Shown here: positions 6,776-63,124 of the stretch, one piece after another
Position numbering within the stretch: position 1 is the first letter of the stretch
How the letters are laid out: each line of letters begins with the position of its first letter
Source of the DNA: a virus
IMG/VR virus record: IMGVR_UViG_3300038468_000190
Span: 62,001 to 126,000 of that record
Direction: 5' to 3' (one strand)
Length of the DNA stretch: 64,000 bases
Program-made: the position numbers and the translations under genes
The notes under the pieces: model-generated
What the model was told of the DNA's origin: nothing
The model's database searches: none
Seen by the model: only the letters and a program-made list of their open reading frames with translations

Positions 6776-8943
<2,168 letters not shown>

Positions 8944-17515: not shown

Positions 17516-17590
17516 GCCCCTCTAGCTCAGTGGTAGAGCATCCGGGTGTAATAACCCGGGAGGTCGGTCGTTCAATTCGATCGAGGGGCT
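17516..17590 (+). tRNA. tRNA-like gene with 10-nt anticodon loop, identity undetermined
   Basis: The acceptor stem (GCCCCTC with GAGGGGC), D arm (GCTC/GAGC), AGGTC variable region and T arm with a TTCAATT loop are all canonical. The anticodon stem (TCCGG/CCGGG) closes a 10-base loop, GTGTAATAAC, instead of seven. The loop contains a tandem TAA. Removing one TAA would leave a normal loop with GTA after U33. An extra G-C pair would still leave eight bases. No CCA is encoded. Confidence 0.65.
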
Positions 17591-17652
17591 CTGGGGCTCG
17601 GCCTGCCGTGTATCCTGCCTCGGCGGGATGGCGGCAGGTCCGCCCCAGCCAC

Positions 17653-29392: not shown

Positions 29393-29712
29393 CCGACGGG
29401 CTTTACTCCCTCCGAGGGGTCGTGGCAGTGCCACATGACGACGAGCCCGAGCATGGCCCCGTCGTCGTCGACGAAGGTGTCCGTCGCGCCCATGGGGAGC
29501 GACAGGGCCGCCCTCGCGCGCGCGGACGCCGTCCCGCTCACCGGCCCCGAGTAGAGCGTCCAGCCGCCTGGGACAGCCGGCTGGGGGCTCGGGGGCGGCG
29601 TCTTACAGATGGGCATCTCGTCCTCGATCGGCGCTCGGAGGAGATACGCGAGCGCCGCCGCGCCCGCCGCCGCGATCCCTCCGCCGAAAAATAGGAGCGC
29701 TCGCCTCTGCAT
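29359..29712 (-). CDS. Exported protein with signal anchor (117 aa)
   Basis: MQRRALLFFGGGIAAAGAAA is a signal or membrane anchor with twin Arg. The exported part has GGWTLYSGPVSG and a closing LVVMWHCHDPSEG. Abuts the kinase-like gene upstream. Confidence 0.5.
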   Translation of the reverse strand: MQRRALLFFGGGIAAAGAAALAYLLRAPIEDEMPICKTPPPSPQPAVPGGWTLYSGPVSGTASARARAALSLPMGATDTFVDDDGAMLGLVVMWHCHDPSEGVKPVGWHKGATLFRI

Positions 29713-30665
29713 CAGCGGAAATGCCTCCCCAGGTTTTCGAGGAGCTCCGTTTCCCTGATGGGCGGCTCGTAGGGCGTCGCCATCGCACCCGGGTCGAGAA
29801 TGACCATGGAGAGCGGCCGCACGTCGCCCTCGATCTCCGCGTGGACGCGCCAGCCGACGTTCAAGAGGTGAAGGTCCTGAAAGACCAGGTCGCCGTACTG
29901 GACGGCGCTGAGCAAGGTCTGCCCAATGATGTCGCCGTAGCGGTTCACGTAGCCGTGGCCGCGCATCTTCTCGATGGCGGCGAGCATTTCCTGAAACGCC
30001 CTGTCGGCGATGTCCTCGACCTCTTCTTTCGAGAGGCCGTCGTACGCGCGGCGCATGAGCTTACCGCGCCAGGAATGGAAGATGAGCGCGTGCCGCCGGT
30101 AGTCCTGGAGCGACATCAGGACGATGAAGAGCTCGCGCATCCGGACCTTCAGGTCTTGAGGAAACGTCGAGAGCGCGTCGCTCATCGCCGAGAGCGACGG
30201 TTCTTTCGGGTCGATGCCGGCCCGCTCGAGAATGGCCGGCGTCATACCGAGCCTGCGGAGCGTTTCCTCGGTCGCGAAGTCCGGGCGCCGGAGCACGGGC
30301 TCCGCCGCCTCGCGCACGATGCCATAGACGGGCATCTCTTCGCTTCCGAAGATGACGTCCGGGTGGATCCGAACGACATCACGAACACGAAGGAACGCGT
30401 CGAGCTCTGCCGAGACCTCGGAATCGCCGAGGAGCTCGGCCATGTAGGCCCAGATGGGGCCCTCGGTCCGGTCGCGGGTGAGCTTGACGACCCAGGGCGG
30501 CTCGGAGTCGAAGACGCAGCCCCAGAGCCCGCAGCCGAGGAGTTCTCCCATCGGGACAGCCATCGTCCGCCGAAACCGGTCGAGGTTTGCCTCGAGAAAG
30601 GAGGACCAGGCGCGCTTGGCCGCAAGCTCCTCGGTGAGCCCCTTGTCGAGCTCGATGGAGGTCAT
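29712..30665 (-). CDS. Protein-kinase-like protein B
   Basis: Start at ATG 30665 (a GTG at 30686 is possible); 317 aa. It parallels kinase A: a GCGLWGCVF loop, K61 in WVVKLT, a shared TEGPIW after it, a VREAAEPVL hinge, catalytic D264 and N269 in QDLHLLN and D291 in LDPGA. All catalytic positions are kept. The middle is more helical than in A. It faces away from A across four small genes and ends a locus next to the CRISPR array. Confidence 0.7.
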   Translation of the reverse strand: MTSIELDKGLTEELAAKRAWSSFLEANLDRFRRTMAVPMGELLGCGLWGCVFDSEPPWVVKLTRDRTEGPIWAYMAELLGDSEVSAELDAFLRVRDVVRIHPDVIFGSEEMPVYGIVREAAEPVLRRPDFATEETLRRLGMTPAILERAGIDPKEPSLSAMSDALSTFPQDLKVRMRELFIVLMSLQDYRRHALIFHSWRGKLMRRAYDGLSKEEVEDIADRAFQEMLAAIEKMRGHGYVNRYGDIIGQTLLSAVQYGDLVFQDLHLLNVGWRVHAEIEGDVRPLSMVILDPGAMATPYEPPIRETELLENLGRHFR

Positions 30666-30741
30666 GGGCGCGCGGTTACGACGCACCCGAAGGATTCTAA
30701 GTGAGGTCCCGGCCGGAATCGAGTGGGATCGGTTCGGGTCC

Positions 30742-30855
30742 CTGACGAGCTAGATCATCCATGGCGGTCGGCTGACGAAAACGCGCGAGCACCCGATTTC
30801 CTCTTCCTGACGAACGGCAATAATCACTGGAAGCACGCCTGCTGCTGGTTGCGGC
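30742..30855 (-). repeat. Decayed CRISPR repeats at the array's far end
   Basis: Three partial repeat starts (CTGACGAGC at 30742, CTGACGAAA at 30772, CTGACGAACGG at 30807) precede the first full repeat. Their 3' parts are unrecognisable. This marks the leader-distal, oldest end. Confidence 0.6.
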
Positions 30856-31900
30856 CTGACGAACGCCATCGGTCACCGTAGGCCTTCCACGCGATGAATC
30901 AGATCCTTGCCGAGTGGTCGCACCCTCTGACGAACGCCATCGGTCACCATAGGCCTTCCGAGCGAGAGCGTTGTGCAGGCGGCCGCGGTGATGCGAGCTG
31001 ACGAACGCCATCCGTCACCCGGAGCCCTTGCGAGTAATATTGAGTGGCATGCCCGCGGGGACCTGAGTACTGACGAACGCCATCCGTCACCGTAGGCCTT
31101 CCGAGCTCGATGCGCCGGTTGCGCCTGTCGAGCCCGTGGGACTGACGAACGCCATCCGTCACCGTAGGCCTTATACGAGTCGCCCGAAAACATGGGCGCC
31201 GATGGGTGATCGAACTCTGACGAACGCCATCGGTCACCGTAGGCCTTCCGATGGCGAACGACAGGCGTCCGCACCCCGGACCGAACTGCTGACGAACGCC
31301 ATCGGTCACCGGAGCCCTTTGCGAGGTCGAGATCGAAATACGCTCGCCTCGTCCGAACTCTGACGAACGCCATCGGTCACCGGAGCCCTTGCGAGTCGCC
31401 ACCGCCGTCGAGAACGGCGAGCTCCGGAGCACCTGACGAACGCCATCCGTCACCGTAGGCCTTCCGAGAAGCAGTGCGGCGTCTGGTACAGCCAGCGCGC
31501 AACCCTGACGAACGCCATCCGTCACCGTAGGCCTTCCGAGCAGTAGCCGCGCCGGATGGATGGCGCTAACATTCGCACTGACGAACGCCATCCGTCACCG
31601 TAGGCCTTCCGAGTTTCCAACGGAGAGACTTGTACGGACAGAAAATGTCTGACGAACGCCATCCGTCACCGTAGGCCTTCCGAGTTCTCCGCCTGCGGGA
31701 CTTCCGGCACGCGATCCATCTGACGAACGCCATCCGTCACCGTAGGCCTTCCGAGCCGGAGGGCGGAGGGAATGATTCCGGAGAGACTCTCCTGACGAAC
31801 GCCATCCGTCACCGTAGGCCTTCCGAGCTTTCTTTTTCGCCTCTTTAGACCTCTGCGCGTCTTCCTGACGAACGCCATCCGTCACCGTAGGCCTTCCGAG
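30856..31900 (-). CRISPR. CRISPR array, 15 repeats and 14 spacers
   Basis: On the plus strand the 36-nt repeat begins CTGACGAACGCCATC and ends GTAGGCCTTCCGAG. Repeats start at 30856, 30927, 30998, 31070, 31142, 31217, 31289, 31360, 31433, 31505, 31578, 31649, 31720, 31792 and 31865. Spacers are 34-37 nt and all different. The seven repeats from 31433 to 31865 are identical, and those to the left vary, so the leader is at the 31900 side and transcription is on the minus strand, like the effector gene. Read that way, TGACG and CGTCA form a hairpin one base before each spacer, like the 5' handle of type V crRNAs. Spacers were not found elsewhere in the window by eye. Confidence 0.95.
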
Positions 31901-33774
31901 CCGTCCCCTCGGAGCCGAGTGACTCCGAGGCTTTGCGGTGCGGTTTGCGAGCGGTGCAGATCGTCGGCTCTGCACTCGGCCGTAACTCGTGGAAGTTGTT
32001 CGTCGTCGGCTCTCGCGTCGCTGGACCTCTCGAATGGGCTAGGGTGATCGATAGCATTCGGCCCCGAAGGGCCATCCGGTTGGTTCGCGGCGCCGGTAAT
32101 GGCTCCGTTCCCCGTTCCACGCTTGTGGCGTGTCCGGTTCCGAGGGCGATCCGGCGGCGTGGAGGCCGAAGCCTCCTCCGCCGTGGTTCCGGTTCCACTC
32201 GGCATTGTCCGAAGGGCGGAGCCCTCCGGGTTTCCCCCGGCGAGTCCCGCCGGAGTTACTGGTGCGCCCGAAGGCGACCTGTAGTCTCGAAGATTCTTGG
32301 CGCTGTTCACTTCGCGGTCCTCGGTGTGGCCGCACGCGGGGCAGTGGAAATCCGGGTAGCCCGGATCCGTGTCCCTGACGTTACCGCACACCGAGCAGCG
32401 CCGCGAGCTCGCGAATTCTTTCTCCGCGAACTCCGTCGTGCCGCCGGCCCATCCCTGCTTGTATTCGATGCGCCGGCGGATGTCGCCCATGCGGGCAAAC
32501 TGCACCCAGCCCGAGACGCGCTTTCGCGTCTGCTCGCCCGCCTCGGTTTTGCCGGCACGGGCCTTCATGTCCGCCACGAACGCGTCCCTCATGACGAGCG
32601 TCCCGGCGCCCGTGTCGACGACGGCGCGCGCGGCGCGGCCGGCAATGTAATCGCGGAGCTCGGTCGCGCGGCGCGAGTAGAGCGCCGCCTGAGCCTTGGC
32701 CCGGCGCCAGCCGTTCGACTGGATGCGGTCTTTGCGCGGAGTGGTCTTCGGGTAGGCCTTGTGCCGGCGCGCCATGCGCCGCTGCCAGAGCGCGATCTTC
32801 CGCTCGTAGGCCGCGAGGCGCTTCTCTTCTCGGATGCCGACGATGTCCACCTCGCCGCCGCTCGTCACGACGAGATGCCGGACGCCGACCTCGACGCCGA
32901 CGCGCTTGTCCGTCCGCGTCACGGGTCGCTCCCGGAGGGCTCTGCCGGCTCCACGGGGCCCAGGACTCGGCCGCGGCACAGTCCCCCTGAGCGAGACGTA
33001 CCAGCGCCCGCCCCATTCGCGAAGGCCGACGGCGGAGCACTGCCCGCCCCCTATGAACCGATGCGAACCCTCCTCGGTCGACGGAAGATAGCCGCGCTCC
33101 TTGAGCTTCACCCAGCCGACGCCTGGGATCTTGATCGCCCGCTCCGTCACGCGAAGCGCGCTCGGCTGGTCGGCGTGCCAGCGGCGGTTATCGCCGGACC
33201 GAAAGCGGGGCTCTCCGAGTTCGCAGCCGGGCGCTCCGCGGCGAGCGTCACACTCGGAGTGATCGCCGCGCGCGTGCTTCTTCAGCCGGCGCCAGAAGTG
33301 CTTGTAGGCATTGCCGACGTCGGCGGCCGCTTCCCGAACGGCGAAGGCACTCACCTCCGTCAGCCAGCGGAGCTCGGCCGAAGCGTGCTTAACCGCCGTG
33401 AGCTCCTTGTGCAGGGCATCGGCGTTCGGCATGGACTCGGGCTCCGCGTACGGGAGCCTCACCTGAAACTTCCAGAGCGTCCGTGGCGCCGCGCCGCGCT
33501 TGGCGCGCTTGGCCAGGCGCTCCGCGGGCTCTCCGAAGACGAGGGCGTGAAGGCCGAGCCCGAGCCACCACGCGGCGAGCCCGGTAGCGTGATCGAAGCC
33601 GGCAAGGGCCCGAAGGCCGCTAGCGACAGAGTAGATGCCGTACTCGGCGCGCCAGCGCTCGAGAGTCCAGTTGTACGCCACGCGTGCCGCTGCGATGTGC
33701 CGCGCGAGCAGGCGCCGTTGCTCGACAGTGGGGTCGAGCTCGGTGCGGTAGGCGCGATCGATCATGTCGGTCAT
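31882..33774 (-). CDS. TnpB/Cas12-type effector with substituted RuvC site
   Basis: 630 aa from ATG 33774, five bases after the upstream stop. The N-terminal DRAYRTELDPTVEQ and VAYNWTLERW are the wedge-domain start of TnpB/Cas12 proteins. RuvC-I reads VGVEVGVRHLV with E295 where Asp is expected. RuvC-II reads LVMRDAFVADM with R396 where the catalytic Glu is expected. A Cys4 zinc finger (C460, C463, C478, C481) leads into RuvC-III EDREVNSAKNL with D486 kept. The E295, R396 and D486 codons were checked in the raw bases. Loss of two of three metal ligands predicts RNA-guided binding without cutting, as known for type V-M (Cas12m) effectors, whose size it matches. Residues after about 500 are Pro/Ser/Thr-rich, and the stop lies inside the first CRISPR repeat. 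No TnpA, Cas1 or Cas2 nearby. Confidence 0.8.
   Translation of the reverse strand: MTDMIDRAYRTELDPTVEQRRLLARHIAAARVAYNWTLERWRAEYGIYSVASGLRALAGFDHATGLAAWWLGLGLHALVFGEPAERLAKRAKRGAAPRTLWKFQVRLPYAEPESMPNADALHKELTAVKHASAELRWLTEVSAFAVREAAADVGNAYKHFWRRLKKHARGDHSECDARRGAPGCELGEPRFRSGDNRRWHADQPSALRVTERAIKIPGVGWVKLKERGYLPSTEEGSHRFIGGGQCSAVGLREWGGRWYVSLRGTVPRPSPGPRGAGRALRERPVTRTDKRVGVEVGVRHLVVTSGGEVDIVGIREEKRLAAYERKIALWQRRMARRHKAYPKTTPRKDRIQSNGWRRAKAQAALYSRRATELRDYIAGRAARAVVDTGAGTLVMRDAFVADMKARAGKTEAGEQTRKRVSGWVQFARMGDIRRRIEYKQGWAGGTTEFAEKEFASSRRCSVCGNVRDTDPGYPDFHCPACGHTEDREVNSAKNLRDYRSPSGAPVTPAGLAGGNPEGSALRTMPSGTGTTAEEASASTPPDRPRNRTRHKRGTGNGAITGAANQPDGPSGPNAIDHPSPFERSSDARADDEQLPRVTAECRADDLHRSQTAPQSLGVTRLRGDGSEGLR
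31901..32280 (-). ncRNA. Candidate structured guide-scaffold RNA / leader between effector core and array
   Basis: The minus strand holds closely spaced stable hairpins: 32265-32276, 32161-32176 and 32060-32073 each close a C(UUCG)G tetraloop; 32209-32229 (nine pairs) and 32237-32253 (CCGGCG/CGCCGG) add two more. A seven-pair CTCGGAG/CTCCGAG stem sits just before the array. It overlaps the low-complexity 3' part of the effector frame, as TnpB omega-RNAs overlap their gene ends. A weak antirepeat (GACGAAC) occurs near 31996. Function as omega-RNA, tracrRNA or plain leader is inference. Confidence 0.4.
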
Positions 33775-33776
33775 GG

Positions 33777-34028
33777 TCAAGGGGTCTTCGGGACGGCGCA
33801 CTCGATGATAAGGGCGTTCGGGGACTCGCGGTAGGTGCAGGCGCGGGCGTTCGGGGAGGGCTTGGGACCGTCGCCGATGGTCCAGTGAGCCAGGAGGCAG
33901 AAGCCGACAAATGCGACGGCGCCCAAAAGCCAGAGGAATGGCCCGGGGACGCCCTTACGCGCGGCGACGATCACGCCGACCGTACACACGATGGAGAGCG
34001 CGACGTTCATGTGCTCGAAGAACGTCAC
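33777..34028 (-). CDS. Small membrane protein (83 aa)
   Basis: The GTG at 34028 shares GTGA with the HD-gene stop. Two transmembrane helices (VALSIVCTVGVIVAARKG, FLWLLGAVAFVGFCLLAH) then a short exported end with two Cys. It lies directly upstream of the effector and may be co-transcribed; any link is unproven. Confidence 0.55.
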   Translation of the reverse strand: MTFFEHMNVALSIVCTVGVIVAARKGVPGPFLWLLGAVAFVGFCLLAHWTIGDGPKPSPNARACTYRESPNALIIECAVPKTP

Positions 34029-59284: not shown

Positions 59285-62200
59285 ATGTTCTCGGAGAACC
59301 GTCCCGAGCTCGCCCTGCTTCGCGGCAAGCGCGGCCCCGACGTGCTCGAAAAGTGGACGGCTGTCTTCGGCGAGGGGCGCCAGGATACGACCGCGCGCTA
59401 CCGGGAGATCCTCGATCGCATTGCGCGCCCTACCGCCGGCGAGGGGCCGTACGTCGGCCGTTACTCCAAGGAGACGGGGCGCGCGTACGGGCACGCCATC
59501 GCCGAGTTTTTCGAGTGGTGCGCACGGCAGCATCGCCGGCCCGTCCTACCCCGCGAGGTCAGCCGGCGAGACGCCGAGGACTACGTCGCCTGGCTCGCCG
59601 ATCGGCCCTTCAGCCTCGAAGAGGAGCGCCTCCGAGACGGCGACGCCGAGGGCCGGCTTACCATTTACGAGGCCGTGAAGAAGCTCGGCTCGGCCGATCT
59701 CTCGAGCATCCGGGCGGAGCTTCCCGAGCGGCTCGGAAAGAACAAGGCCGCGCTCGCGCACGAGCTCGGGCGGATGGTCCTTCACGATCTCCTCGTCCGG
59801 AGCCCGACGCTCGACGAGCTCAGAAAAACCGATCCGCAGATCGGCATCCGTCACTTCTCCGTGCCGATGCCCGGCGGCGGCGCCATGGATCTCGACGACG
59901 TCTTCGTCTACTCGACGCCGGAGCCCCGCGGCCTCAGCCGTTCGACGATCGCGCTCCGGCTCTCCGCCCTCTCGCGCTTCTGGCAGGAGCTCTGCCGCGG
60001 CGATCCGGAGACGCCGCCGCTCGTACGGTTCAACGTGTTCGACGAGATCTTGTCGCGCGTCTCGCGGGGGCTCGCGGCCGATAAGCGCGCCGCGCGCGCG
60101 CGTAAGGCCCGGCTTACGCCCGAGCTCGTCTCGCGCCTGCTCAATGCGGCTGACGGCCAGACGCTCGTAGAGAAGCGCGACGCGGCGCTGTTTTGGTTCG
60201 TGGTGCTGATGGGCTCGCGCGTCAGCGAGGCGCGGCTCATCCTCCGGGACAAGCCCCGCGACGTCCACCACGCGCCGGGCTGGCTCGAGCCGCTCTCGAC
60301 GCCGGTCGTCGTCGAGCTCGTCCGAAAGGGCGGCGTCCACCATCGCTTGCCCTATCCGCCGTACGCCCTCCGAGCGCTCTACGCGTTTCAGACCGAGCTC
60401 GAGCGCCACGCCGCGCCCCGCGGGAGCCAATCCGAAGATCCGCGCTCGCCCGGCTACGTCCAGCCGCGCTCGCCCAAGTGGCGCTACAAGGCGCTAGCCG
60501 AAGAGCCCGACGCGCCGCTCTTTCCTCCGGTCGTCTTCTGGGGCGCAAACTCCCCCGAGCTCTACGAGGAGCAGAAACCGAATCCCCTTCGGCCCGACTA
60601 CCGCCGGCCGATGAGCGCGGCCGGCGTCCGGGCGATCTTGAAGAAGATCGCCAAGAAGGCCGGGCTCTCGCCGGAAGAAGAGCGCGCCGTCCACAGCCAC
60701 GCCTTCCGGCACTTCGCGGCGACGGCCATGGCCCGTCGCGGTAAGCCCCTCCGCGAAATCAAGACCCTCCTCGGCCACTCGAGCATCACCGTCACCGAGG
60801 GCTACGTCGAGGACGAGACCGACTTGGCCGCGCTTTCCGGTCAGAACGAAATTCTTGACTACATCGCGACCGGCGAGACGGCGCCTGGCGCGCCCGCCCC
60901 CGCGCCCGCGCGCGTGGCGCCACGAGCGCCTCCAGAAGCGCCGCCGGCTCCCCCTCGGGTCATCGAGACGGTCGGCGTCAGAGCCCCTGAGAGGCGCCCC
61001 GAAGAGCCGGGATTGCCCGCCGAGTCGCCCACCGCCCGGAAGGGCCCCGAGACGCACGAGGTCGGAAGGGGCCTCGTCGCCGTCTCGGAAAAGGGGCCGC
61101 TCCCTCCCGACCGATTCCCCGGAAAGCCCGACGTCTCGGCGGGCTCGCCCTACTACGCCTACGCCGACATCGGCTCGGAAGACGCGGCCGACAGAGAGCC
61201 CATTCACTTCACCAGGGTAGGGCCCGCTCGAGCCTCCACGCGCGCGACGCTCTACGAGAAGGCCGGCAAGAAGATGGTCCAGGAGGATCCGTTTCTCGCC
61301 CGCCACTACGATCCGTGGCCGCTCGGCTACGGGATTGGCGAGACGTCGCTCCTTCCGTGGTTTGCGCGCGGCGCTGCCTCGAAGCACGGCGACGTCGTCG
61401 TCGACGTCCGCACGCGTACGGGCGAAAAGAAGAAGGCCGTCGTCCCGCCGCTTCCCGTCTTCGCCCCCGAGCAGCTCTACTCCGAGCTCAAGGCGAAGAC
61501 GCTCTTCTCGCGGGTCGAAGCGATGCGCGAGCGGTTCCTCAAAGAGGAGCCGACGAAGGCGTTCGGGCTCGACAGGTGGTGGGGCGCCTTTCAGGAAATC
61601 AGTAAGGGCCTCTCGGCTGGCACGAAGGGGAAGTTTCGATTCGTGCCGTTCGAGTCGGCGGGGGCGGTCGGTAAGGACGTCCGCGCCCACGACGACGAGT
61701 ACCTCGCCGCCTGGCTCGAAAAGAACGCCGGCCGCTACACGACGACCGTGAGGGCCTTCGAGAGCATCGAGCGGCCGCGCGGCGGGGCGCGCGACGAAGA
61801 AGAATGGGCCGCCTTCCGGGAGGCGTTTGCAAAGGCGTCGCTCGTCGGCGTGAGCCCGGCGGAGGAACTGCCGGACTGGTTTATCTTGGACGATCCCGTC
61901 AAAGACATCTGGAAGCAAAACCCGGAGGAGTGGGAGTGGTTTTCGAAATGGATCGGCGCCGTGACGGGCCAGAAGCTCACGAGCGCGCGAAAGGACGAGC
62001 GCGCCTCCGAAGTCCGGCTCGCCGAAGAAACGCGCCGCACGCGGATCGACGAAGCCCGCGAGCTCCTCAAGGCCTACTTCGAAAGCGTCGAGACCCTGCA
62101 CCGCGCGGGGCGCGCGCGCGACAAGGACGAGGCCGACAGGGAGCGCGAGACGATTGCCCTTCTCACCGAGCGCCTGGGAGCCCTCGGCGTCAGGGATCCG

Positions 62201-63124
62201 AAGACGGCCAAAGAGCTCCCCCGCACGCTCTCGGCGCGGATCGAGACGCTCCTCTCCGAAGCATTCCCCGAAGCCGGCGTCGAGCTCGTCGACCCGAACG
62301 TCCTCGAGAGCTCGCTCTTCGACAAGGAGTCATTTCGGATTGACAGGTTCGAGCACACGATTGTCCACACGGAAGCTTTCCGCGCGGAGTTTGCCGAGCG
62401 CTACGACGGGCGGGACTCGGAGTGCGTGATGCGCCGCGCGGCGCGCGGAATGTGGGAGCACGTGAAGCGCCATGGCATTCCGATCCAGCGCGGCACCGAG
62501 CGGTCGAGCGAGTACAGCCTTCTCTACTCGGTCATGCTCTCGTACATCGCCTGGATCGTCCCCTGCCCGCCGGACATCGAGAAGCGCATGACCGAAGTCA
62601 CCAAGGGCGAGCTCACCGGCGAGGAGGCGCGCCTTCGCTACCTCGGAGCGTTCCGGAAGGCGTCCGCGCGGCTTCTTCGCGTGACGCGTGACCACGACGA
62701 GGAAGAGCTTCTCGAAGCCGCGATGGACGAAGGGCTCGACGCGATGGGCGCGGCCGAAGTCCTCGAAGCCTCCCTCGTCGAGGACAGCCTCCGGGCCGCC
62801 GTAGCGCTACCGAGCGCGCCGGTCACCGAAGCTCTGGCCCGCACGGCCGTAGAATCCGGCGCCGTCGCGGTCAGTAGCCGCCGCCCCGCCGTCATCGTGG
62901 CGCGACGCGTGGGCCGGCAGGTCGTTCGCGACGTGCCGGTGCCGGCTGCTACCTACTTCTCGGTCGGCGACGACGACGAGGATGCCGAGCTCGCGCCGAA
63001 TGCGCCTCCCCGGCGCTACCTGACGCCGAATGCTCTTCGCGCGGGCCTCGCCTCCATGCGCCGGCCCGAAGAGACGATGCCGTCCGTCCTCCGTATGATG
63101 ACGGCGATGACGATCGGCTTTTAG
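59285..63124 (+). CDS. Large tyrosine recombinase with long C-terminal extension
   Basis: 1,279 aa. SAM-like core-binding segments lie within residues 55-260 (TGRAYGHAIAEFFEWCARQ, STIALRLSALSRFW). The catalytic domain keeps R312 (MGSRVSEAR), K348, H472 and R475 (HSHAFRHF), H498 (LLGHSS) and Y507 (EGYVEDE): a complete active site. After about residue 530 a Pro/Ala linker leads to about 700 residues with no known motif, charged and helical, including AETRRTRIDEARELLKAYFE-type coils. Usual integrases are 300-450 aa. It may integrate or resolve the element, with the extension recruiting DNA or protein. Confidence 0.8.
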   Translation: MFSENRPELALLRGKRGPDVLEKWTAVFGEGRQDTTARYREILDRIARPTAGEGPYVGRYSKETGRAYGHAIAEFFEWCARQHRRPVLPREVSRRDAEDYVAWLADRPFSLEEERLRDGDAEGRLTIYEAVKKLGSADLSSIRAELPERLGKNKAALAHELGRMVLHDLLVRSPTLDELRKTDPQIGIRHFSVPMPGGGAMDLDDVFVYSTPEPRGLSRSTIALRLSALSRFWQELCRGDPETPPLVRFNVFDEILSRVSRGLAADKRAARARKARLTPELVSRLLNAADGQTLVEKRDAALFWFVVLMGSRVSEARLILRDKPRDVHHAPGWLEPLSTPVVVELVRKGGVHHRLPYPPYALRALYAFQTELERHAAPRGSQSEDPRSPGYVQPRSPKWRYKALAEEPDAPLFPPVVFWGANSPELYEEQKPNPLRPDYRRPMSAAGVRAILKKIAKKAGLSPEEERAVHSHAFRHFAATAMARRGKPLREIKTLLGHSSITVTEGYVEDETDLAALSGQNEILDYIATGETAPGAPAPAPARVAPRAPPEAPPAPPRVIETVGVRAPERRPEEPGLPAESPTARKGPETHEVGRGLVAVSEKGPLPPDRFPGKPDVSAGSPYYAYADIGSEDAADREPIHFTRVGPARASTRATLYEKAGKKMVQEDPFLARHYDPWPLGYGIGETSLLPWFARGAASKHGDVVVDVRTRTGEKKKAVVPPLPVFAPEQLYSELKAKTLFSRVEAMRERFLKEEPTKAFGLDRWWGAFQEISKGLSAGTKGKFRFVPFESAGAVGKDVRAHDDEYLAAWLEKNAGRYTTTVRAFESIERPRGGARDEEEWAAFREAFAKASLVGVSPAEELPDWFILDDPVKDIWKQNPEEWEWFSKWIGAVTGQKLTSARKDERASEVRLAEETRRTRIDEARELLKAYFESVETLHRAGRARDKDEADRERETIALLTERLGALGVRDPKTAKELPRTLSARIETLLSEAFPEAGVELVDPNVLESSLFDKESFRIDRFEHTIVHTEAFRAEFAERYDGRDSECVMRRAARGMWEHVKRHGIPIQRGTERSSEYSLLYSVMLSYIAWIVPCPPDIEKRMTEVTKGELTGEEARLRYLGAFRKASARLLRVTRDHDEEELLEAAMDEGLDAMGAAEVLEASLVEDSLRAAVALPSAPVTEALARTAVESGAVAVSSRRPAVIVARRVGRQVVRDVPVPAATYFSVGDDDEDAELAPNAPPRRYLTPNALRAGLASMRRPEETMPSVLRMMTAMTIGF

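Follow-up and report, generated by a model that had tools for sequence, protein, structure and literature searches.

A phage-borne CRISPR array behind a TnpB-like effector with a replaced RuvC triad: a putative binding-only silencer between related phages

The window analysed here is a stretch of 64,000 nt, bases 62,001-126,000 of the 140,124-bp virus record IMGVR_UViG_3300038468_000190 (labelled G000). It carries a CRISPR array and, immediately upstream, a gene for a TnpB/Cas12-like protein (the effector) in which all three catalytic positions of the RuvC nuclease are replaced, and together they are considered here as a candidate system for silencing between related phages. The components are as follows.

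31882..33774, minus strand: effector gene, 630 aa, TnpB/Cas12-like, upstream of the array; Met start at 33774, with a GTG start at 33801 possible
30856..31901, minus strand: CRISPR array of 15 repeats of 37 nt with 14 complete spacers, from R1 (31865-31901) to R15 (30856-30892)
30772..30843, minus strand: degenerate distal repeat remnants, including a half-repeat at 30807-30843, with the GTTCGTCAG end retained

A preliminary description had placed 15 repeats directly downstream of, and co-oriented with, a 630-aa TnpB/Cas12 gene, and this arrangement was confirmed. No gap separates the two: the effector frame reads through the leader and its stop codon lies inside R1. The repeats are regular and the spacers (34-38 nt) are all different, as in CRISPR arrays generally. 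The repeat consensus is GCTCGGAAGGCCTACGGTGACGGATGGCGTTCGTCAG; its last 15 nt are invariant in 15/15 copies, and changes lie further 5', mostly in gene-distal repeats. The invariant 3' part fits a type V CRISPR RNA (crRNA), in which that portion of the repeat would form the handle, and the processed crRNA would carry a 5' handle ending GGCGTTCGTCAG. A scan of viral contigs with the repeat core returned eight single matches, about the chance level. Four relatives of G000 were found in IMG/VR via one conserved protein: G001 (138 kb), G008 (136 kb), G009 (63 kb), and G010 (130 kb). Cas1 (PF01867) is absent from these five family records, in which the controls were detected, in agreement with the earlier statement that the system has no adaptation genes of its own.

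The effector and its active site

The effector matches the Pfam families TNB (E 5e-15) and HTH_OrfB (E 4.5e-12). Active-site alignments were made with five plain TnpBs, 80 viral homologues, and 80 homologues from cell genomes; in these the catalytic columns correspond to effector residues E295, R396, and E488 (E-R-E). All 85 plain and viral homologues have D-E-D at these columns, as do 164 of the 165 in the combined set, the exception being a 191-aa truncated open reading frame (ORF) that lacks the first column. Glu at RuvC-I, Arg at RuvC-II, and an intact Cys4 zinc finger (C460, C463, C478, and C481) had all been read correctly beforehand. D486 had been taken as the retained RuvC-III residue and is instead the noncatalytic first Asp of “DRD”; the catalytic position is Glu488. 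In ISDra2 TnpB, the catalytic residue D361 is the second Asp of HDRDEN and aligns to effector residue 488. Among columns conserved in ≥90% of homologues, the effector keeps 30 of 43, and the three catalytic positions are all among those lost.

An AlphaFold2 (AF2) model of the effector (predicted local distance difference test [pLDDT] score, 82; predicted template modeling [pTM] score, 0.77) has ISFba1 TnpB as its best PDB match (TMq 0.60) and puts E295 and R396 at strand ends and E488 at a helix start, as a RuvC fold would have them. The recognition (REC) region is ∼64 residues above the homologue median (83 versus 19 residues between residues 40 and 122), with an insert at about residues 45 to 118 that also occurs in the orthologue described next.

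The sister phages were located through the conserved gene, possibly that for the major capsid protein, and an orthologue of the effector surfaced only afterwards, in G008. It has 48% identity to the window protein (E 2e-134), the triad E-R-D, a different genomic position, and its own co-oriented array. The G008 repeat ends GTGACGGGCGGCGCTTGTCAG and the window repeat GTGACGGATGGCGTTCGTCAG, with the common 3' end GTGACGG..GGCG.T.GTCAG, and the two repeats look homologous. Because two of the three replacements recur in the orthologue, sequencing error is an unlikely source of them. Over residues 1-500, the NG86 method gave a nonsynonymous rate (dN) of 0.52 and a synonymous rate (dS) of 1.26, a ratio of about 0.42 in which dS may be underestimated owing to GC-rich third positions. 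The protein is therefore under purifying selection, despite two catalytic residues being replaced alike in both phages.

Several lines of evidence place the effector nearer to TnpB than to Cas12m. The NCBIfam model guided_TnpB matches above its cut-off and IS607_TnpB below. A search with the effector profile (profile A2) gave TnpB at 1e-121, LaTranC at 1e-54, and Cas12m chains at 1e-13 and 7e-9, and in fold comparison TMq was 0.45 to Cas12m2 (8hhl) versus 0.60 to ISFba1 TnpB. The published list of Cas12m triads (HDD, HEK, HQK, DED, NED, and DND; PMC10442227) does not contain E-R-E. Membership in type V-M (Cas12m) was rejected on profile, fold, and triad, and the kinship with Cas12m suggested previously was abandoned, as sequence, profile, and fold are all closer to plain TnpB. 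PADLOC ranked the Cas12u4 profile first (7e-44), but the 148 bits of the effector fall short of the 200-370 bits that this profile gives for many of its TnpB-like hits in cell genomes and of the 682 bits for a putative Cas12n that has an array of its own and is encoded in the genome containing locus L121. Among the 72 proteins of a tree, none has a longer branch than the effector, which falls in no starred group and does not group with the putative Cas12n. Type V-N (Cas12n) was rejected on these scores and because E-R-E is not the active D-E-D triad, and the Cas12u4 scores, the tree, and the profile and fold results are the reasons for filing the effector under neither V-M nor V-N.

An IS200/IS605 or IS607 transposon TnpB was likewise rejected: TnpA was absent from G000, G008, and G010 in searches with PF01797 (Y1) and PF00239 (serine recombinase) that detected their controls, and the triad is not D-E-D. 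The competing explanation that the preliminary description had recognized, a transposon TnpB of the usual kind beside an array unrelated to it, is countered by this absence and by the orthologous G008 locus. Replacement of the RuvC catalytic residues is expected of a TldR-like protein, and the 15 repeats are not, TldR having a single omegaRNA-type guide without an array. As judged from sequence, the effector is one more independent branch from TnpB to CRISPR, with RuvC predicted to be inactivated; such transitions have been inferred about 50 times already, and RuvC inactivation is known to recur (PMC12669027). Single-sequence searches of viral and genome contigs found no relatives of the effector, and a search with the window and G008 orthologue pair found no third member.

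Among other TnpB-like loci, the viral record IMGVR_UViG_3300010276_000129 encodes a TnpB-like protein with D-E-D, and a CRISPR-like array of 6 repeats with a spacing of 62-67 lies no more than 31 nt downstream of the gene (L054:3845-5487). In IMGVR_UViG_3300035698_022762, about nine repeat copies spaced ∼60 bases (AACACCCCCATTACATGGGGAACAA; L072:8495-8995), perhaps a CRISPR array, lie ∼3.4 kb from a D-E-D TnpB.

The leader and the spacer targets

The end of the effector gene may also encode a structured RNA.

31902..32300, minus strand: effector ORF 3' end and leader, a candidate scaffold resembling a trans-activating crRNA (tracrRNA) or omegaRNA, structured and partly conserved at the RNA level
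31942..31985, minus strand: nucleotide block conserved with the G008 orthologue in a pairwise leader alignment, TACGGCC..GAGCCGACGATC.G.ACCGCTCGCAAA, 40-85 nt upstream of R1
32029..32060, minus strand: possible anti-repeat, weak; complementary to the repeat at 24/32 positions without gaps, and no other sequence of the record outside the array matches the repeat better (E 0.022)

The ∼400 nt that precede the array also encode the C-terminal tail of the ORF. Fold z scores against shuffles reach −4.8 (32130-32289) and −4.0 (32050-32209); 58 control stretches from the window had a mean of −0.09 and a standard deviation of 1.26, with one below −3. GC content at third codon positions drops in the leader region from 0.75-0.93 to 0.61-0.68, and between the window and G008 substitution over residues 561-630 is even across the codon positions (0.43, 0.45, and 0.45). 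The leader fits an omegaRNA-derived scaffold or a tracrRNA within the effector mRNA, as in Cas12n, whose tracrRNA lies inside the cas12n mRNA (PMC11641405). A search of Rfam gave no family. The claim of a strong tracrRNA anti-repeat was dropped: in duplex energy it comes only ∼395th among 46,289 windows and is equalled by 16 of 150 shuffled repeats.

Two window spacers match genes of the virus itself.

31470..31504, minus strand: spacer 6, 32/35 to a lysozyme-like ORF of the same virus (L004:13450-13484), E 5e-11; mismatches at 2, 4, and 7
31107..31141, minus strand: spacer 11, 34/35 to a collagen-like tail-fibre ORF of the same virus, E 8e-13; mismatch at 7
8472..8506, plus strand: counterpart of spacer 11 in the phage's own genome, within the collagen-like tail-fibre ORF (7609-8943)

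A third match was found in the sister phage: spacer 5 of G008 matches its own phosphatase-like gene at 35/38 (mismatches at 16, 36, and 38) and the window orthologue of that gene at 31/38. “Lysozyme-like” and “phosphatase-like” are readings from sequence motifs, and the lysozyme-like ORF matched no Pfam or PHROGs family. Relative to the phage's own gene, spacer 6 has two synonymous changes and one Ser/Thr change; G008 spacer 5 encodes Val, as does the window gene, where G008's own gene has Ile. Because these differences look like divergence between homologues, the mismatched spacers look as if they had been taken from sibling phages. The generalization that own copies always escape by seed mismatch was dropped, given the positions of the mismatches in G008 spacer 5.

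The window array, searched against phage and plasmid collections as the preliminary description had proposed, gave no matches, nor did the G008 and G010 arrays against the phage collection, and the remaining spacers of the three arrays had no convincing target in the five family records. A degenerate pattern for the spacer 6 target had no match in viral contigs. In a translated spacer search (G000 and G001), only spacers 6 and 11 were clearly above shuffles; spacer 7 also scores above the shuffles but is Arg-rich. The window and G008 arrays have no spacer in common. The earlier proposal that the array is aimed at rival elements is thus borne out in part: spacers 6 and 11 and G008 spacer 5 match family genes directly, and few spacers have a target.

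The phage family and a second effector

A search by one conserved protein found no close GenBank relative of the phage. Among the best-conserved proteins of the G000 group is that of L002:10072-10875 in the G000 record, possibly the major capsid protein, which is 91% identical to its G001 counterpart and had no match in 50,697 phage records; the group seems to represent a phage family not yet described. G001 is syntenic with G000 over much of the genome but lacks the cassette of effector and array; the site between the same neighbour genes holds two other small ORFs. One of the neighbours marks the genomic slot.

29712..30686, minus strand: neighbour gene, of which each of the four relatives has a homologue; in G010, too, it comes after an array, there preceded by a different dead-looking Cas12-like gene

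The slot by this gene (100,109-101,221 in G010) holds, in G010, an unrelated 583-aa protein (L219:16025-17776). The locus (L219:16025-19974; IMGVR_UViG_3300046780_000888) consists of its gene, a 212-aa ORF, and a 20-repeat array with an unrelated repeat. The 583-aa protein matches the Cas12u3 (1.9e-12) and Cas12f (6e-10) profiles. In alignment with AsCas12f, E324 corresponds to Gln456, and D401 is kept as Asp545; RuvC-I reads VVRIGMRKL, with Arg for Asp by an assignment made by eye, which gives an apparent R-Q-D triad. A single-sequence AF2 model (pLDDT 46) had no usable fold. The 212-aa ORF has a weak leucine-zipper-like tail.

Elsewhere in the window, a 1279-aa ORF (59285-63124, plus strand) has a tyrosine-recombinase domain (PF00589) at residues 276-510, which suggests a role in integration or other recombination, and a long C-terminal part conserved in the sister phages. 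At 17516-17591 (plus strand), beside a tRNA-Leu, ARAGORN calls a tRNA with a four-base anticodon (taat).

Function, alternatives, and known systems

We consider it probable that the locus is a compact, phage-encoded type V-like system, independently derived from TnpB, that acts as a binding-only silencer between related phages. Because the active site is replaced, because of the relatives' systems, and because some guides match sister-phage genes, binding of DNA without cutting is probably how these viruses silence competing relatives. The following steps are envisaged. (i) The array transcript, probably with structured RNA from the 3' end of the effector mRNA, would arm the effector with guides. 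(ii) The E-R-E pocket (E-R-D in the orthologue) would not be expected to form a normal two-metal RuvC site, and the complex would bind complementary DNA and block transcription or replication rather than cutting. (iii) Spacers would be aimed at least partly at conserved sibling-phage genes (fibre, lysozyme-like, and phosphatase-like), which would favor the resident phage during co-infection or superinfection; imperfect matches to the carrier's genome would be tolerated because nothing is cut. (iv) New spacers could come from host adaptation in trans or from recombination between phages. On a wider reading we are evenly divided: that this family of 130-140-kb phages recruited nuclease-dead Cas12/TnpB proteins with arrays at least twice independently (the E-R-E/E-R-D TnpB type of G000 and G008 and, in the same genomic slot, the apparent R-Q-D Cas12f-like type of G010) as a binding-only anti-sibling weapon. 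This would be convergent inter-phage CRISPR interference, the Arg in the RuvC pocket being an added DNA-holding residue.

Several points weigh against the silencing of relatives. Of the ∼22 spacers in the window and G008 arrays, only three have a target, in each case within family genomes, and that of spacer 11 is a low-complexity collagen repeat. There was no perfect protospacer in the collections searched, and the 5' flanks of the matches (CCCG, CGGG, and GGGC) have no clear common motif that could serve as a protospacer-adjacent motif (PAM). The anti-repeat is weak and of unexceptional duplex energy, and only the window and G008 orthologues are known. Glu sometimes serves as a metal ligand in place of Asp, and the E-R-E triad is therefore no proof that all activity has been lost.

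Imperfect guides might instead dampen the phage's own late genes (fibre and lysozyme-like) or silence them in lysogeny. The two phages have three spacers that match the genome carrying them, a dead effector would permit such guides, the virus has an integrase, and TldR, which acts on flagellin, is a precedent (PMC13418256). Nevertheless, self-regulation appears unlikely, as the differences in spacer 6 and G008 spacer 5 resemble homologue divergence, the own copies matched by spacers 6 and 11 mismatch within the first 7 nt, and most spacers have no self match, with nothing shared between the two arrays.

It is very unlikely that the effector tolerates Glu for Asp, still cuts or nicks DNA, and belongs to a type V system that interferes in the ordinary way. 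Asp has become Glu at two of the three sites, and the orthologue retains the RuvC-III Asp, but R396 stands in place of an invariant Glu in both orthologues, and G008 spacer 5 matches its own genome at positions 1-15 and at 35/38 overall, a degree of self-matching that ought to be fatal with a cutting effector unless the PAM were absent. Use of the array by host Cas machinery, the neighbouring TnpB relic being incidental, is highly improbable too. Viral mini-arrays that exploit host Cas proteins are known (PMC11656645) and the phages have no Cas1, but two orthologous loci that have diverged and lie at different places in their genomes both pair effector with array, their repeats look homologous, and a different Cas12-like gene precedes the G010 array. 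A decaying transposon TnpB beside an unrelated array would account for the longest tree branch and the loss of the active site but is scarcely credible given the intact 630-codon frame, a dN/dS of about 0.42, the E, R, and REC insert common to both orthologues, the orthologous array, and the lack of a TnpA of either family.

If silencing of relatives is correct, the locus would be a separately evolved RNA-guided silencer from TnpB and a testable case of phage-versus-phage interference inside one phage family, and it suggests that loss of cutting is favored when guides approach the carrier's own genome. The effector is compact. Why phages have dead Cas12 proteins could be tested directly on the orthologue pair and on the nonhomologous replacement found in that slot.

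Cas12m silences without cutting, acts on plasmids and phages, and protects Escherichia coli from phage (PMC10442227, PMC11013384). The window system resembles type V-M/Cas12m (V-U1; binding-only silencers carried by plasmids and prophages) in a size of ∼600 aa, an array by a single effector, no adaptation genes, a replaced RuvC triad, and an extra REC insertion relative to TnpB. Unlike Cas12m, its triad (E-R-E/E-R-D) is not a listed one, its sequence, profile, and fold are nearer TnpB, and a structured RNA lies upstream of the array. LaTranC (structures 9jfo and 9jfq), an intermediate from TnpB to Cas12, is likewise a TnpB-like protein (profile match, E 1.5e-54), but the match is weaker than that to plain TnpB and the catalytic residues are replaced in the window effector. 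Type V-N/Cas12n (V-U4; PMC11641405) shares the TnpB-like core, the array right behind the gene, and a candidate RNA in the 3' end of the gene; in contrast, the window effector has a low Cas12u4 score (148 bits) and no tree grouping with Cas12n, which cuts DNA. TldR proteins, nuclease-dead TnpB-like repressors of which some are phage encoded (PMC13418256), are similar in being phage TnpBs with a replaced RuvC and predicted RNA-guided repression but have one fixed guide rather than a multi-spacer array, and no flagellin or csrA partner was noticed near the window locus. Finally, phage type V systems have been described with spacers against other phages' core genes and with a “dCas14,” a Cas14 without a catalytic residue (PMC7162821). 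Their Cas1-less arrays, anti-phage spacers, and inactive effector, suggested to be a repressor, are the counterparts of what we describe; the effector lineage and phage family differ, and here two nonhomologous dead-looking effectors occur in one family.

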